Positions 3,819 through 21,477 of a stretch of 26,105 nt of DNA are shown here, in pieces; the first letter of the stretch is position 1; the number at the start of each line of letters is the position of its first letter. Under the pieces are notes generated by a model. That model saw nothing but the letters and a program-made list of their open reading frames with translations, had not been told where the DNA came from and did not search any database. The position numbers and the translations under genes are program-made. Location of the stretch: positions 1-26,105 of IMG/VR virus record IMGVR_UViG_3300009164_000315. One strand, given 5' to 3'. Source of the DNA: a virus.

Positions 3819-4490
3819 TTATTTAGATTTTTTAGATTTTACAATCTCATCAATGATTCCGTATTTTACGGCCTCTTCTGCATTTAACCAAAAGTCTCTG
3901 GTTGCATCCTTCTTTACTTGATCAGGTTTTTTACCGCAGTATTTACCTAATAATACAAATAGTTCATGATTAACTTTTTGCCATTCAGCCCAGTCAACTT
4001 CAGCGTCTTGGATATTTCCGCTAAATCCACCAGAAGATTGATGTAACATTGTGGTTGAGTGCTTTAGGGAACTACGCTTACCCTTTGTGCCAGCACCCAA
4101 GAGAATAGATCCCATTGATGCAGCCATTCCAGTATTTACTGTTCGGATATCGGCTTTAATATAATCCATTACGTCTACCATTGAAAGTCCAGACTTAACT
4201 GATCCGCCTGGAGAATCAATATGCATTGTAATATCAGTACCATCAACTGAATCTAGGAACATTAACTGAGCCTGCACAATAGTTGACATATAATCATTTA
4301 CTGGACCAGCAACCCAAAGAATACGGTCCCTCATTAATCTGGAAAAAATATCCATTTGAGTAACCCGTAACTCGCGTTCTTCTAAGATATAAGGAGTCAT
4401 TGATGACTCAACTTGTTTACTGTAATAATCTAATTTCAATGAGGACACCCCGTGCTCGCTCATTGCATACTTTTGGAATTCATTCATCAT
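3819..4490 (-). CDS. clpP: ClpP-type serine protease
   Basis: The 223-residue product has the full ClpP signature: a glycine-rich turn in HIDSPGGSVKSG, the nucleophile Ser in GMAASMGSILL, the His in STTMLHQSSGG and the catalytic Asp in ATRDFWLNAEEAVKYGIID. This is the usual triad order and spacing, and the length is that of cellular ClpP. Phage ClpP-like proteins can act in capsid maturation or in general protein turnover; which applies here is not visible. No major capsid or portal gene is next to it, and adhesin-like genes follow downstream. Start at 4490 or at the next Met (4487). Confidence 0.9.
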   Translation of the reverse strand: MMNEFQKYAMSEHGVSSLKLDYYSKQVESSMTPYILEERELRVTQMDIFSRLMRDRILWVAGPVNDYMSTIVQAQLMFLDSVDGTDITMHIDSPGGSVKSGLSMVDVMDYIKADIRTVNTGMAASMGSILLGAGTKGKRSSLKHSTTMLHQSSGGFSGNIQDAEVDWAEWQKVNHELFVLLGKYCGKKPDQVKKDATRDFWLNAEEAVKYGIIDEIVKSKKSK

Positions 4491-5688: not shown

Positions 5689-6558
5689 TTAAAAATTGTT
5701 TGTTGTTGAATTATAGAAAACTAATCCAGTAACATTAGTTGTTTTTGTAATAGTCGGGGTTGAATAGTTAAACGTTAAAACATCTCCGCCACTTAGTTCT
5801 CCAAACTGTATTCTAATTGGATAATAAACTCCAGCAGTTAATGTAATTGATCCCGATTTTTCAGTTGTTCCATGCAATCCACCATTATTAACCGTTGCAT
5901 TGGCTGTCGTAAAACCAGTTTGAGCCGTTGCACCAATCCACATATACGAAGCATCATCACTTGAGGTAAAGAATGTATAAGTTTCAGAAGTAGTTGGTTT
6001 AAAATAACCTAACCATTGGCAACTAAATGAAGATCCGTCATCAGTTCCAGGTTCTGATATTGTAGTTGTTTGAACTGACGTAATTGGATTTGCACCAAAT
6101 GCTTGTGGTGTTGCGGTTGCAAAGAAACTTACATTATCTGCAAAATATCCACTATATGTTGTTTTATATAAACCTGCAATATATGGTTGAACCCATGAAG
6201 TCCAATAACCATTATCATTTAACCAAGTAAGAGCGGCTGATGCGCTTGCTAGATTAGGCAATCCGCCTAGATCTCTTTTAATATAATTAGCCAGTTCCAA
6301 AAATGATTGATCAGTTTTAGCAGTACTTCTAGCAAATCGAACTGTTCCAATTGCACCCATTTGAGTTGGTTGATTTCCAGCAGGTACCGGTCTGCAAATT
6401 AGGTAACCGGTTGTATCTTCTGGCCCCATCCACCAAGTTAACCCACCTGGATTAGCGCCATAGTGCTGGTCAGTTGTTCCTATTGATAAATTAACTAAAT
6501 TTGTTGTTCCAGCAATAGTAGACTGACTTGGATTATATGCAAATGGGGTAGTACTCAT
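5689..6558 (-). CDS. Phage surface protein with PA14/GLEYA-like domain
   Basis: Residues 1-125 of this 289-residue protein are clearly related to the start of the neighbour at 4510-5673 (both have NPGGLTWWMGP and LANYxKRxxGG). The remainder (about 130-289) resembles a PA14/GLEYA carbohydrate-binding beta-barrel: YSGYFADNVSFF, then WLGYFKPTTSETYTFFTSSD, ASYMWIG and VYYPIRIQFGE. In PA14 domains a strand of this type plus the SDD turn helps bind Ca and sugar. This suggests two alternative receptor- or surface-binding tips on one base module. A GATAAATA late box lies 21 bases upstream of the ATG, after a terminator. Confidence 0.75.
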   Translation of the reverse strand: MSTTPFAYNPSQSTIAGTTNLVNLSIGTTDQHYGANPGGLTWWMGPEDTTGYLICRPVPAGNQPTQMGAIGTVRFARSTAKTDQSFLELANYIKRDLGGLPNLASASAALTWLNDNGYWTSWVQPYIAGLYKTTYSGYFADNVSFFATATPQAFGANPITSVQTTTISEPGTDDGSSFSCQWLGYFKPTTSETYTFFTSSDDASYMWIGATAQTGFTTANATVNNGGLHGTTEKSGSITLTAGVYYPIRIQFGELSGGDVLTFNYSTPTITKTTNVTGLVFYNSTTNNF

Positions 6559-6579
6559 CCTATTTTAATTACTTTATTC

Positions 6580-6587
6580 TATTTATC
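6580..6587 (-). promoter_or_regulatory. Late-promoter-like box GATAAATA
   Basis: One mismatch to TATAAATA, 21 bases upstream of the PA14-domain gene start at 6558, just past the terminator at 6594-6621. Confidence 0.5.
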
Positions 6588-6593
6588 TCACAT

Positions 6594-6621
6594 AAAAAAA
6601 CCGGTCCAGGTGAACCGGTTT
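6594..6621 (-). terminator. Rho-independent terminator
   Basis: AAACCGGT (6598-6605) and ACCGGTTT (6614-6621), loop 8 bases. On the minus strand the stem ends in a T-run (TTTTTTTATG). It closes the unit of the coiled-coil gene at 6643. Confidence 0.85.
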
Positions 6622-6642
6622 AATATATAAAGTTTAACTTAA

Positions 6643-7032
6643 TTATAATTGGTCATCGTGTCCAGCAAAGAACCACAGAATTGAACGAATATTACGTTGT
6701 TCATTACTTAATGCTTCAACTTCAATTTTCTTTTCTTGATTGATCCGGTTTAAATCCGCATGTTCATTACGAAGTTCAATTAGTTCAGAGTTAAATTGAG
6801 TACGCTCAATTAATTCAGCTTCACGAGCTTCCGCATTTGAATAAACTTTTTTACCGTTTGCATCAACTTCAGAATTGATGGCAGTTTTAATCTTTGATTC
6901 AATACTAGAGATTGATTCGCTAATTCGATTAGACTCATTAGTGAGACTTAATATCTCTACTTGGAGTTCTTGGATCTGCTTTGGCAATTGCATTAAACGC
7001 TCTGCCGTGTTTGATAATGTTGTACGTGTCAT
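6643..7032 (-). CDS. Coiled-coil protein of unknown function
   Basis: The 129-residue product is a nearly continuous heptad-rich helix (about residues 8-110, rich in L, I, E, N and S), such as IQELQVEILSLTNESNRI, ending in a short hydrophobic tail (SILWFFAGHDD). It could be a structural rod, chaperone or scaffold; nothing in the motif content decides. A GTATAATA box lies 18 bases upstream of the start and a strong terminator follows the stop, so it appears to be a single-gene transcription unit. Confidence 0.65.
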   Translation of the reverse strand: MTRTTLSNTAERLMQLPKQIQELQVEILSLTNESNRISESISSIESKIKTAINSEVDANGKKVYSNAEAREAELIERTQFNSELIELRNEHADLNRINQEKKIEVEALSNEQRNIRSILWFFAGHDDQL

Positions 7033-13260: not shown

Positions 13261-13809
13261 TTACTTTACGATACCTGCTAATTTTTGGTTAGCTTGATCA
13301 ATCTTAGCTGTCTTAGTTGCAAATACTGATTTGAATTTCTCAACCGCCGATTTAATTTTATCAGATAGTTTAGCAACTACTGCCCTTACTTTATCAGATA
13401 ATTTAGATTCTTCAACCTTTTGAATATCATAAGAGTGTTTTACACTAGTTACTGCAGTATTTACTCTAACACATTCGTTAATAATTGCTTGAGCAGCTTC
13501 ATCAACTTGAGTAAGAGCTTGTTCAACTGCTTTACCATATGCAATTGACGTACCTTCTCCACCGTATCTAGTAATCTTAATTACGTACTTCTCAGTTAAG
13601 GCCAATTTATCATTTAAGACTTTCATTGCATCAAATACTGGTTTAATACTAGCATCAAACTCTTTTAATTCGCCTTCAATTGACTTGGTTTCAGCAGTTA
13701 GTTCTTTAAGTCTTTCTTTAATTTCATGGATTCTATCCAATTTTGAAACAAGCGCTTTATCTTTAATTTGAGCTTCGTTTACAAATTGTGTAAATTTTAA
13801 CATTTGCAT
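13261..13809 (-). CDS. Coiled-coil protein with T4-like packaging-peptide N-terminus
   Basis: The 182-residue product starts MQMLKFTQFVNEAQ and is otherwise heptad-rich helix (KLDRIHEIKERLKELTAE near the start, a second stretch from about residue 120). The start LKFTQFVNE|A resembles the T4 internal-protein packaging peptide (for example MKTYQEFIAE|A), which the prohead protease cuts after Glu. It could thus be a protein carried inside the head or a core component. ATG 13809 or the next Met (13803) can start it. A TATAAATA box lies 22 bases upstream of 13809. Confidence 0.7.
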   Translation of the reverse strand: MQMLKFTQFVNEAQIKDKALVSKLDRIHEIKERLKELTAETKSIEGELKEFDASIKPVFDAMKVLNDKLALTEKYVIKITRYGGEGTSIAYGKAVEQALTQVDEAAQAIINECVRVNTAVTSVKHSYDIQKVEESKLSDKVRAVVAKLSDKIKSAVEKFKSVFATKTAKIDQANQKLAGIVK

Positions 13810-13831
13810 GAGTGTTTTAATTATTTTAGGT

Positions 13832-13839
13832 TATTTATA
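13832..13839 (-). promoter_or_regulatory. Late-promoter-like box TATAAATA
   Basis: 22 bases upstream of the ATG at 13809 and just after the stop of the preceding gene. Confidence 0.6.
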
Positions 13840-13850
13840 TTAAGCCAATC

Positions 13851-14408
13851 TTAGTAATCATCAGTTCCGTTTAAATCACCAATTTCGTCGGCTAGAATAT
13901 TATTAAGTTGCTGAGCAAAAGTATCATTTGACTTATATAAAATTTCAGTATATTTGTCATTTTTTAACTGATCAGTTAAAATTGACTCTACTTGATCATG
14001 GTCAGCACTAGAGACCTCTTCCATTGAGTATTTACTAAATGCCTCATCTATAATACTGGACTGTATGTCTTTTTGAGATGCATCGGTTAGGCCTAATTCT
14101 CCAAGCCCTAATATATCATTTGTTGCTTCAGCAAGTTCAGTTAAGATAAGATTATTAATTTCGGGATCTTTAAACTTTTCGCAATAATGAATATTGTACA
14201 GCCACCAGTCTTCAGCAAAATATCTAGACCCAAAATGTCGGATCTCTTCATCATCACGGTCACCAACCTTCGCTGCAATTTCAATACCCATACGATAGAT
14301 GATTTGGTTAATGACAAATACCAGGTCCTCAAAGGCTACATGAACATCTCTAGTGGCTGGAAACTGACTTGCTTCAGTTACAAATTGTTTAAAGTTTTTA
14401 GCTTTCAT
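13851..14408 (-). CDS. Unknown protein with packaging-peptide-like N-terminus (tandem paralogue)
   Basis: I choose ATG 14408 (MKAKNFKQFVTEA) because the neighbour begins with the same KAKKFKQFVTEA, and because this start shares a base with the neighbour's stop (TAATG). An in-frame ATG at 14414 would add MV. The 185-residue product is a clear tandem duplicate of 14408-14962: shared VFVIN, EDWWL or DEWWL, CEKFxDPxIN and MEEV positions. The FKQFVTE|A start fits a cleaved head-packaging peptide. Body function unknown. Confidence 0.7.
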   Translation of the reverse strand: MKAKNFKQFVTEASQFPATRDVHVAFEDLVFVINQIIYRMGIEIAAKVGDRDDEEIRHFGSRYFAEDWWLYNIHYCEKFKDPEINNLILTELAEATNDILGLGELGLTDASQKDIQSSIIDEAFSKYSMEEVSSADHDQVESILTDQLKNDKYTEILYKSNDTFAQQLNNILADEIGDLNGTDDY

Positions 14409-14962
14409 TACCATCGGCCGTTATCATAATGTTCAACTTCATTATCTAATTCCCTAGTAGCTCGTTCGTCAAAGTTTCCAGTTAAATCTTGATATAATAA
14501 ATTCCTATAACTAGAGTCATCAATTTGTTTAGCTAGGATTGACGTTACTTGAGATAGTTCAGCATCAGGCACCTCTTCCATTGGATACTCATTTAAGGCC
14601 TTCCAAAGATAGTCGCTTACCGCTTTTTCAACTGAATCAGCAACTAAGTCTAATTCACGAAGGCCAGTTATATCATTTATGATATTAGAGATTTCAGCTA
14701 ATACTTGTTGGTTAATTTTTGGATCTGTGAATTTTTCACAAAAAGGAATACTATTTAACCACCACTCGTCTACATAAGTTGAAGCAGATAGTCCAACTGA
14801 CGAATCTGCTGGTTCATGGTCAACCGTTCCATCAAGTTCAACTGTCATAAAATAAATGGTATCATTAATAACAAATACACACTCTTCTACGTCAACACTG
14901 ATACTAGCAGATCTACGCTTAATTGCTTCGGTTACAAATTGTTTAAATTTCTTAGCTTTCAC
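14408..14962 (-). CDS. Unknown protein with packaging-peptide-like N-terminus (tandem paralogue, GTG start)
   Basis: The frame begins at GTG 14962 (VKAKKFKQFVTEA), 19 bases downstream of an AATAAATA box at 14982-14989. The 184-residue product aligns along most of its length with 13851-14408: N-terminal packaging-type motif, VFVIN, DEWWLNSIPFCEKF, then acidic helices to the C-terminus. Duplication followed by divergence is evident. Like its partner, it could be an internal head protein delivered with DNA, although no enzymatic motif is seen. Confidence 0.7.
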   Translation of the reverse strand: MKAKKFKQFVTEAIKRRSASISVDVEECVFVINDTIYFMTVELDGTVDHEPADSSVGLSASTYVDEWWLNSIPFCEKFTDPKINQQVLAEISNIINDITGLRELDLVADSVEKAVSDYLWKALNEYPMEEVPDAELSQVTSILAKQIDDSSYRNLLYQDLTGNFDERATRELDNEVEHYDNGRW

Positions 14963-15241: not shown

Positions 15242-15925
15242 TTAGCCAATATATTTTGCAAAGTTAACAGCTGCTTCATAGGCCTGTTCGTATGAATGAA
15301 TTGTTTTAGCTCCCCTAAGTTTAAATGGAACATATCCAGTAGCCCATTTCTCAAGGGTTAATTCTTCGTCTGCTTCAGTTTTTGCCAAGCGTTCAATATA
15401 AAACTGATCAATGTGTTTAATATAGTAACGGTCATAGCTTAATAAATCTTCAACTGGGATAGTCCAGGTCTCAGTAAATAGTTTATCGCCTTTACCGAAA
15501 GACTGAGAAGCTCTATGCGAATACCCAACCCATCTTTTCTTTTCTTTATGCCATGCAGTATGTGGATGCGAGCCTTTAGTCGCTCTTAACTTATTATTAT
15601 AATACCACCAGCCCTCTTCAATAGATCCCACGTAATGACCGTCAGGGTGTATACTTGAATGGTAAAGAACAAACTCACCTCCTTGGCCATGGTGATCGAC
15701 TGTGCGAGTCTTTATCTTTAGGCCAGTATTCTCCTCTATTAATTTAATACATTCAGGATTTACAATCCAACCTCTAAAATCCCTAAATGGAGTTATACGA
15801 CTTACTAATTTAGTAAAGCCCAAGTTTAGATGGACTTTATTTAGTTTGTCTTTTCCTGAATAGTAAGGAAACTTTTCAAACTTAAGTCTAATTTTACCAA
15901 GGTATGGTGTTCTGTTTTTAATCAT
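15242..15925 (-). CDS. Unknown 227-residue protein
   Basis: The product starts MIKNRTPYLGKIRLKFEK and is rich in aromatic residues and histidines, with HHGQGGEF, HSSIHPDGH and SHPHTAWHKEKKRW between about residues 95 and 165. These could be metal ligands or simply surface residues; no standard His motif fits. The C-terminus is helical. It abuts the next gene without a gap. Family unknown. Confidence 0.6.
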   Translation of the reverse strand: MIKNRTPYLGKIRLKFEKFPYYSGKDKLNKVHLNLGFTKLVSRITPFRDFRGWIVNPECIKLIEENTGLKIKTRTVDHHGQGGEFVLYHSSIHPDGHYVGSIEEGWWYYNNKLRATKGSHPHTAWHKEKKRWVGYSHRASQSFGKGDKLFTETWTIPVEDLLSYDRYYIKHIDQFYIERLAKTEADEELTLEKWATGYVPFKLRGAKTIHSYEQAYEAAVNFAKYIG

Positions 15926-20470: not shown

Positions 20471-20935
20471 TCAATTTGTATTCTTAGATTTCTTTTTTAA
20501 TTGTATCATTTCTTCTGGTGTAAATAGAGCTCTACCGAATTCTTTCATACGATCAGAGTATCTCTCTTTAACTCTATTGCTTATTGCAAGCGGAAGACCT
20601 TCATCGTCTATTCTAACAAATTTAATATGGGTATGAGTAACGACTGTTTGCAAACCTGTGTATACGTTATGCTTGCGAACTTCAATGTATAACGTAACTG
20701 ATGTTATGCCAAACTCTTTTACATTTGCATACACCTTTAAGATATTTCCAACCTTAACTGGTTTCTTGAAAATAAGCTCATCGATCTTTAATGTAACAAT
20801 ACGTTGGGTATCGCAAACTTGCGAAGCATAGCTGGCAGAAGCATCGTCTATTATTGAAAGAATTGTTCCACCGAACATATTATCATGAATTCCAATATCT
20901 CCTTTTTTACAAATGTAGGTGCTAACTAATTCCAT
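20471..20935 (-). CDS. Hotdog-fold acyl-CoA thioesterase (YciA/BFIT-like)
   Basis: The 154-residue product has the hotdog-thioesterase sequence pattern: HDNMFGGTILSIIDDASASY (residues 17-36, with the N-M-F-GG and D residues of the active-site region), then IVTLKIDELIFKKPVKVGN and ITSVTLYIEVRK. This matches cytosolic acyl-CoA thioesterases, which hydrolyse the thioester to free CoA and fatty acid. In a phage this could tune host fatty-acid metabolism, membrane repair or lysis. Its start lies inside the end of the 2H phosphoesterase gene (10-base overlap), so the two are made together. The plus-strand barrel gene is convergent. The substrate is inferred. Confidence 0.8.
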   Translation of the reverse strand: MELVSTYICKKGDIGIHDNMFGGTILSIIDDASASYASQVCDTQRIVTLKIDELIFKKPVKVGNILKVYANVKEFGITSVTLYIEVRKHNVYTGLQTVVTHTHIKFVRIDDEGLPLAISNRVKERYSDRMKEFGRALFTPEEMIQLKKKSKNTN

Positions 20936-21477
20936 GGTTCTTCAAGCCTCTCTCCTCCTGGTTTTGAGTACACAATTTTATCAGGAACAACATCATACTG
21001 TTTATCCTTAAATAGGTCTACGTATTTTTTACCGGTACCAGGTTTTAGGTATCCAATAGTTGCATGTGGATGGTAGTCTGGAAAATTAGTAGTATGTGGA
21101 AGCTTTGCTAATTCTGCATTTATTTTGGATAAGACCGGATTTTCAACATCAAATTTAAGAACATCGTATTTTTCGTTTTGGAATAGCGATGCATTAACTA
21201 GTGTCATTGGCCCAATTGGTTGAGCCATACAAATATCCAACACCTCTTGGTCTGGAATTTTATATGAATGTAATCCGTATAGCAGAGTAGTATGAGGTTC
21301 GTCCTCTAGGCCAAATGAGCGGTCGCCTTCTTCAGTATAGACATCAGCTTGATCAATTTGTGAATGAAAGTCTGCTATTTCTGGAAAGTTAAAATAGACC
21401 ATTGCGCAGCCAAACTCGTGAGTTTCGCCTTTCTTTTCAAATAGACTAGTTAGGAATTGTGTAAATGTTTTGATCAT
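20926..21477 (-). CDS. 2H phosphoesterase superfamily protein
   Basis: Two H-x-T motifs define it: H62-T-T64 in EPHTTLLYG and H138-A-T140 in YHPHATIGYL, about 75 residues apart, in a 183-residue product. These are the catalytic pair of 2H phosphodiesterases, which open 2',3'-cyclic phosphates or cut 2'-5' or cyclic nucleotides. T4 Acb1, which destroys CBASS signals, belongs to this superfamily, as do RNA ligase-like and CPDase members; which applies is not determined. The N-terminus MIKTFTQFLTSLFE resembles the packaging-type starts at 13261-14962 but lacks the E|A site. Confidence 0.8.
   Translation of the reverse strand: MIKTFTQFLTSLFEKKGETHEFGCAMVYFNFPEIADFHSQIDQADVYTEEGDRSFGLEDEPHTTLLYGLHSYKIPDQEVLDICMAQPIGPMTLVNASLFQNEKYDVLKFDVENPVLSKINAELAKLPHTTNFPDYHPHATIGYLKPGTGKKYVDLFKDKQYDVVPDKIVYSKPGGERLEEPWN

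Follow-up and report, generated by a model that had tools for sequence, protein, structure and literature searches.

A putative T4-type capsid targeting leader on unrelated proteins of large environmental phages and its likeness to a repeat of the prohead scaffold

Three adjacent genes in a fragment of 26,105 bases from a large T4-related freshwater phage (the window, i.e. the whole stretch of DNA that was analysed) and, in five related contigs, 15 to 25 genes per contig were found to encode proteins that start with a short common leader of the pattern aromatic-x-x-aromatic-aliphatic-x-Glu, which in all likelihood acts as a capsid targeting sequence of the T4 type. In the explanation proposed here, which was drawn from sequence comparison and which as a whole is considered highly probable, the leader-carrying proteins would be made late in infection, would be taken into the prohead core by the leader and would be cleaved after Glu by a gp21-type protease, releasing the bodies within the head, where they would remain beside the DNA, presumably to accompany it into the next host. 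The leader would correspond to one detached unit of a 14-residue array in the scaffold half of a protease-scaffold fusion, and the cargo would co-assemble like scaffold and be freed by a cut of the type by which the scaffold itself is shredded. The packaging into the prohead core and the cut after Glu are the steps that we infer strongly.

Leader-bearing genes of the window

The window was assigned to a T4-related phage by its split type II topoisomerase and its tRNA cluster (13 tRNA genes between 7779 and 9827, minus strand). A first-pass annotation had described three adjacent proteins with a T4-like head-packaging peptide, and the corresponding ORFs were found on the minus strand, as were all genes surrounding them (Table 1). 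The three N-termini fit KxFxQFV[NT]E/A, where the slash marks the predicted cut. Since the products of genes 13851 and 14408 (proteins 2 and 3) are paralogues with 40% identity, to which protein 1 is unrelated, all three leader starts stand, but they represent two independent cases and not three. Protein 1 is well conserved in the clade with 79-91% identity. In the family of proteins 2 and 3, five of the 14 invariant columns lie within the 12-residue leader, and the bodies are as low as 22% identical.

Table 1. Positions of leader-bearing genes, leaders and upstream elements in the window, and of the relatives' protein with an internal copy of the leader motif
Feature	Position	Strand	Remarks
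Leader protein 1	13261..13809	-	182 aa, pI 9.2 (basic); helical/coiled-coil body
Leader of protein 1, MQMLKFTQFVNE	13774..13809	-	predicted cut by the prohead protease between Glu12 and Ala13
Late-promoter-like TATAAATAA	13831..13839	-	upstream of protein 1
Leader protein 2	13851..14414	-	187 aa, pI 4.3 (acidic); paralogue of protein 3; may start at the second Met, 14408
Leader of protein 2, MVMKAKNFKQFVTE, then A	14373..14414	-	predicted cut after Glu14
Leader protein 3	14408..14962	-	184 aa, pI 4.3 (acidic), GTG start; paralogue of protein 2
Leader of protein 3, MKAKKFKQFVTE, then A	14927..14962	-	predicted cut after Glu12
Late-promoter-like AATAAATAA	14981..14989	-	upstream of protein 3
2H phosphoesterase, Acb1-like	20926..21477	-	degenerate leader MIKTFTQFLTSLFE, then K
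Degenerate leader of the 2H phosphoesterase	21436..21477	-	Glu shifted
Protein with internal KRFEQFVNEN	L040:3809-4462	-	
Same protein in G009	59552-60157		
Same protein in G007	61940-62605		

Searches with the bodies of the trio gave little. Against PHROG and Pfam, protein 2 had no match, protein 3 had chance-level matches at most and protein 1 had weak coiled-coil matches only; homology to the bodies of IPI, IPII or IPIII was not found in these collections, and PADLOC returned coiled-coil-type or weak matches only. No homologue of the body of protein 3 was found among named phages. In the AlphaFold2 model of protein 3 the body is folded from residue 18 (mean pLDDT 80) and residues 1-17, which comprise the leader, are of low confidence, a picture that fits a removable leader. 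The only match in a fold search with this model was a 91% identical protein of an uncultured phage, and all solved structures had a Z of at most 5; therefore, no function was assigned from the fold. Two genes from the leader cluster, a gene without a leader (15242-15925, minus strand) strongly matches Tad6, an inhibitor of type I Thoeris (PF25188, E 2.6e-23).

Leader counts, upstream elements and out-of-sample comparison with T4

Leaders were counted with a strict motif, F..F[ILVM][NTSAEKR]E[ASNGK], and with a profile of ten columns that was trained on the clade and used at a threshold of 9 with internal positions of the same proteins as control. The strict motif has a chance rate of one match in 206,428 internal positions of clade proteins and was seen at three of the gene starts of the window (42 called genes) versus about 0.0016 expected. 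In the related contigs G004 (271 kb) and G009 (253 kb) together it occurred at 19 of 581 first-ATG N-termini, compared with a mean of 0.09 and a maximum of 2 after shuffling. The first-pass annotation had proposed a genome-wide scan for further starts of this kind, and the profile indeed matched 24/312 genes in G004, 25/307 in G009, 16/212 in G007, 17/178 in G002 and 15/105 in G003, for which 0-1.2 matches were expected from internal positions. Moreover, the huge phage LR745206 (635 kb) carries the leader, as KKYxxFI[NK]E[SE], on 34 of 908 genes versus an expectation of 4.1, and of the 514 genes in the initial 400 kb of LR756500, 21 carry it as MKYIKxYEEF[ILV]xE versus an expectation of 2.8. 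A mere chance resemblance among short helical N-termini, which the shortness of the motif and the paralogy of two members of the window trio might suggest, is therefore as good as impossible: the expected numbers were about 8 to 100 times below those observed in every clade genome and in the two huge phages, and this candidate was ruled out by the internal-position and shuffle controls.

The leader, for example in the form MKAKKFKQFVTEA, was found on proteins that otherwise are not related, and it is located no further than about 15 residues from the start. When it was removed from 110 leader proteins, the remaining bodies fell into 56 families without detectable similarity between families. 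In locus L110 (16324-18342, minus strand), four small genes in a row have starts like MKYLRKYNES or MKHLKRYNES. These are perhaps a shortened leader overlooked by the profile, in which case the real total of leader genes would be higher.

In G004 and G009, 27 of 48 leader genes but 102 of 571 other genes have the heptamer ATAAATA, which forms the core of T4's late promoter TATAAATA, at most 100 bases upstream (Fisher p 2e-8); it was the most enriched 7-mer, yet also the one expected. Shared upstream elements would also accompany a 5′ gene end that was spread by recombination as a moving cassette and retained for expression and not for its peptide. Such an origin of the leader is highly improbable, since synonymous codons at its conserved Phe, Glu and Asn differ between families, which indicates selection on the peptide, the position of the first aromatic residue ranges from 4 to 11, and the peptide is kept in deeply split phages and in T4.

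The leader profile, which was built without any T4 sequence, was applied to T4 as an out-of-sample test. Among 249 T4 ORF starts IPIII and IPII were the top two and IPI was fourth, the T4 ORFs being taken as IPI-III from their sequences and lengths; due to the fact that IPII and IPIII have one leader in common, they were counted as a single event. Over all 49,739 T4 ORF positions, IPIII and IPII again ranked 1-2, the gp23 cut site QAFGSFLTE/A ranked 5th and a site in the gp22 scaffold 7th. The arrangement of the clade leader (aromatic, aromatic at +3, aliphatic at +4, Glu at +6) equals the key positions and spacing of T4 IPIII, in which targeting is determined mainly by residues 4 and 7 and cutting by residues 8 and 10, gp21 cleavage following L/I-x-E (PMC9026906).

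Prohead protease, capsid protein and scaffold repeats

The head module is absent from the 26 kb of the window, and its prohead protease is predicted from relatives only. Peptidase S77, the gp21 type for which the first-pass annotation had suggested a search, was found above the Pfam cut-off in all seven searched related contigs of at least 180 kb, in frames of 665-674 residues, and the S77 protease was found in 39 loci. The stretches GELDHP and SSRAAG, which presumably contain the active-site His and Ser, are strongly conserved. L186 is the nearest protease candidate for the phage of the window; its metagenome also yielded a contig with leader genes identical to those of the window, but L186 may belong to a different phage. 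In the relatives, a gp23-type capsid protein (PF07068, E 3e-41) adjoins the protease. Its N-terminal part contains a conserved NAGS[IL]NE/[SA] in the region that matches T4 gp23 processing, and SINE/S or SINE/A is a candidate capsid cut site near the expected place. Together with the further leaders and the ranks in T4, the occurrence of protease and capsid protein in relatives supports the initial reading of the peptide as a T4-like head-packaging signal.

A protein encoded near the capsid gene was observed to have a conserved internal copy of the leader motif, KRFEQFVNEN, at residue 106 (Table 1), which is perhaps an internal cut site. The window itself encodes a ClpP-type protease (3819-4490, minus strand; Pfam E 3e-57). 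It has matches among the PHROG head maturation proteases as well, and an S77 prohead protease is already present in this lineage.

In the protease protein, 9-13 repeats of exactly 14 residues, IxYSEY[IL]AEN, e.g. INYSEYVAENVEKT, are located in the C-terminal half. The same fusion of protease and scaffold was found, with nearly perfect repeats (NIAYSEYIAENLDK), in huge uncultured phages (635, 636 and 735 kb), and in degenerate form in another of 462 kb. The scaffold repeat retains the aromatic-x-x-aromatic-aliphatic-x-Glu of the leader with identical spacing, for which the chance in a random 14-residue repeat in any register, estimated from the clade's own residue frequencies, was about 0.004 with lenient and 0.0002 with strict criteria. 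A profile that was built solely from the repeats of the huge phages placed IPIII and IPII at the top of the T4 gene starts and ranked a leader gene first in G004, in G007 and in G009. The same profile gave no enrichment of the leader set as a whole, the leaders preferring Phe at the place of Tyr in the repeats, and on T4 it failed to pick out the scaffold gp22. The case for mimicry therefore rests on the shared key positions and the top ranks. With this evidence we lean slightly towards the view that the leader is recognised through imitation of one scaffold repeat, in which case it would contact the repeats.

Across the giant phages that were examined, leaders and repeats occur together. No leader genes were found in the genome of Tenacibaculum phage PTm1, which has an S77 protease, and its protease-scaffold protein (L121:3854-5548, plus strand) has a different aromatic periodicity of 16 residues. 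In T4, leaders are present and a repeat array is not visible, and the array is thus not essential for leader function.

An AlphaFold2 model of the protease-scaffold protein was set aside and not taken as evidence due to its low confidence (mean pLDDT 43; repeats helical but with pLDDT below 50). In LR745206, an ORF of 83 aa (L111:435-686, minus strand) made of scaffold repeats (MNYEDYIAESLEKNISYSEYIS...) is located beside a DnaJ-like gene, and in G004 (L040:10663-11568, minus strand) a DnaJ-like gene also adjoins the protease-scaffold gene.

Leader-carried bodies and relation to known systems

The recognisable bodies comprise a Nudix hydrolase, a MoxR-type AAA ATPase, a 2H phosphoesterase, a lysozyme, CHAP and a VanY/endolysin, with weaker matches to a HAD-like hydrolase and a nucleotidyltransferase; the majority of the leader bodies have no recognisable identity. 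Several bodies have leaderless homologues, as is expected if bodies gain or lose the leader. Starting from G009, homologues in the sister genome were found for 13 of 25 leader genes and 174 of 234 other genes (p 0.03), and starting from G004 for 13 of 21 and 174 of 235, respectively (p 0.3); leader genes are thus somewhat less conserved than others, significantly so in one direction only.

These data bear on whether the leader marks effectors for injection or structural proteins of the prohead core or minor head proteins whose bodies, that of protein 1 among others, act inside the head only. The presence of the motif in the scaffold itself, the small leader-bearing proteins adjoining the capsid gene (G004 6443-6808 and 6117-6422) and the conserved coiled coil of protein 1, which could equally possibly be a core protein, agree with a purely structural role. 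However, there are several enzymes among the bodies (Nudix, HAD-like, 2H phosphoesterase, AAA ATPase), which have leaderless homologues elsewhere, and the leader genes show the somewhat lower conservation given above, so that a structural role is considered rather unlikely though deserving serious attention.

In relatives, the leader was also observed on peptidoglycan hydrolases (lysozyme, CHAP and VanY; L045:8703-9548, minus strand; L064:5353-5979, minus strand; L047:8591-9844, plus strand), which are odd as injected effectors. Peptidoglycan hydrolase function is usual in tails, and these proteins might point to a leader that targets another part of the virion (neck, tail or baseplate) or a site in the host instead of the prohead core. 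Such a target is nevertheless very unlikely, because core cargo and sites cut by gp21 give the best T4 matches of the profile, the core scaffold that is joined to the prohead protease contains the motif again, and no leaders were found in PTm1, whose S77 protease is accompanied by a different scaffold repeat.

The 2H phosphoesterase encoded in the window at 20926 has a degenerate leader in which the normal Glu position is without Glu. The protein resembles Acb1 and the phage 'RNA ligase' PHROG 755, and both of its HxT motifs are invariant across six relatives; the match to Pfam Acb1 (E 2.5e-4) is under the curated cut-off, and comparison with Acb1 structures gave an E of about 0.7. In LR745206, the leader of a protein of 438 aa (L110:8257-9573, minus strand) is normal, and the start that comes after it resembles this phosphoesterase (HKYGC versus HEFGC).

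The closest known counterpart of the proposed prohead targeting by the clade leader is found in T4 (Tequatrovirus), where IPI-IPIII and Alt have the same N-terminal aromatic-x-x-aromatic-aliphatic-x-Glu leader before a gp21-type cut, a cut which in the clade is predicted. As in T4, one leader is found on unrelated bodies, and a gp21-type protease and a gp23 capsid protein occur in the same lineage. In contrast to the handful of leader genes in T4, about 25 per genome were found here; the bodies include enzymes and acidic proteins such as proteins 2 and 3, while the T4 internal proteins are basic, and the protease is fused to a scaffold built of repeats. Furthermore, the phages of the clade are large, environmental and distant from T4. 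In T-even phages, leaders of the T4 type were already known from diverse bodies in the 1990s; at least 10 internal proteins have been reported there, and IPI, IPII and IPIII act as inhibitors of type IV restriction enzymes (PMC12373910). In phiKZ-like phages (phiKZ, 201phi2-1, SPN3US) many head-internal proteins are likewise cut after Glu by a gp21-related protease, but their cut sites have very few determinants besides Glu (PMC9026906), whereas a specific short leader is shared in the clade. The Dar proteins of P1 are likewise head-packaged by an N-terminal signal (the capsid targeting signal of DarB) and act against restriction; they are without a consensus leader, and a separate scaffold is apparently lacking in P1 (PMC9024508). 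The literature since 2015 on capsid targeting sequences, in the parts available to us and judged from titles and abstracts, deals with T4, P1, P22, SPN3US or phage-based vectors and not with the phages described here. As far as this literature shows, three features are apparently new, absence from the literature being no proof: how large the repertoire is, its occurrence in giant environmental phages and the likeness to scaffold repeats.

The reviews consulted give no explanation of how the T4 core recognises the targeting leader, and the scaffold repeat array offers a concrete, testable answer. It is on balance plausible that within a broad group of T4-related giant phages the scaffold is made of 14-residue cut-and-bind units, and that any protein with one such unit at its start would be packaged, cut and injected. 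If true, the injected arsenal of each phage would comprise about 20-35 proteins and could be deduced from sequence alone. The sequence rule would thereby predict the injected proteome of large uncultured phages, whose genes are for the most part uncharacterised, and it highlights candidates for counter-defence, including the Acb1-like enzyme and several nucleotide-processing enzymes.
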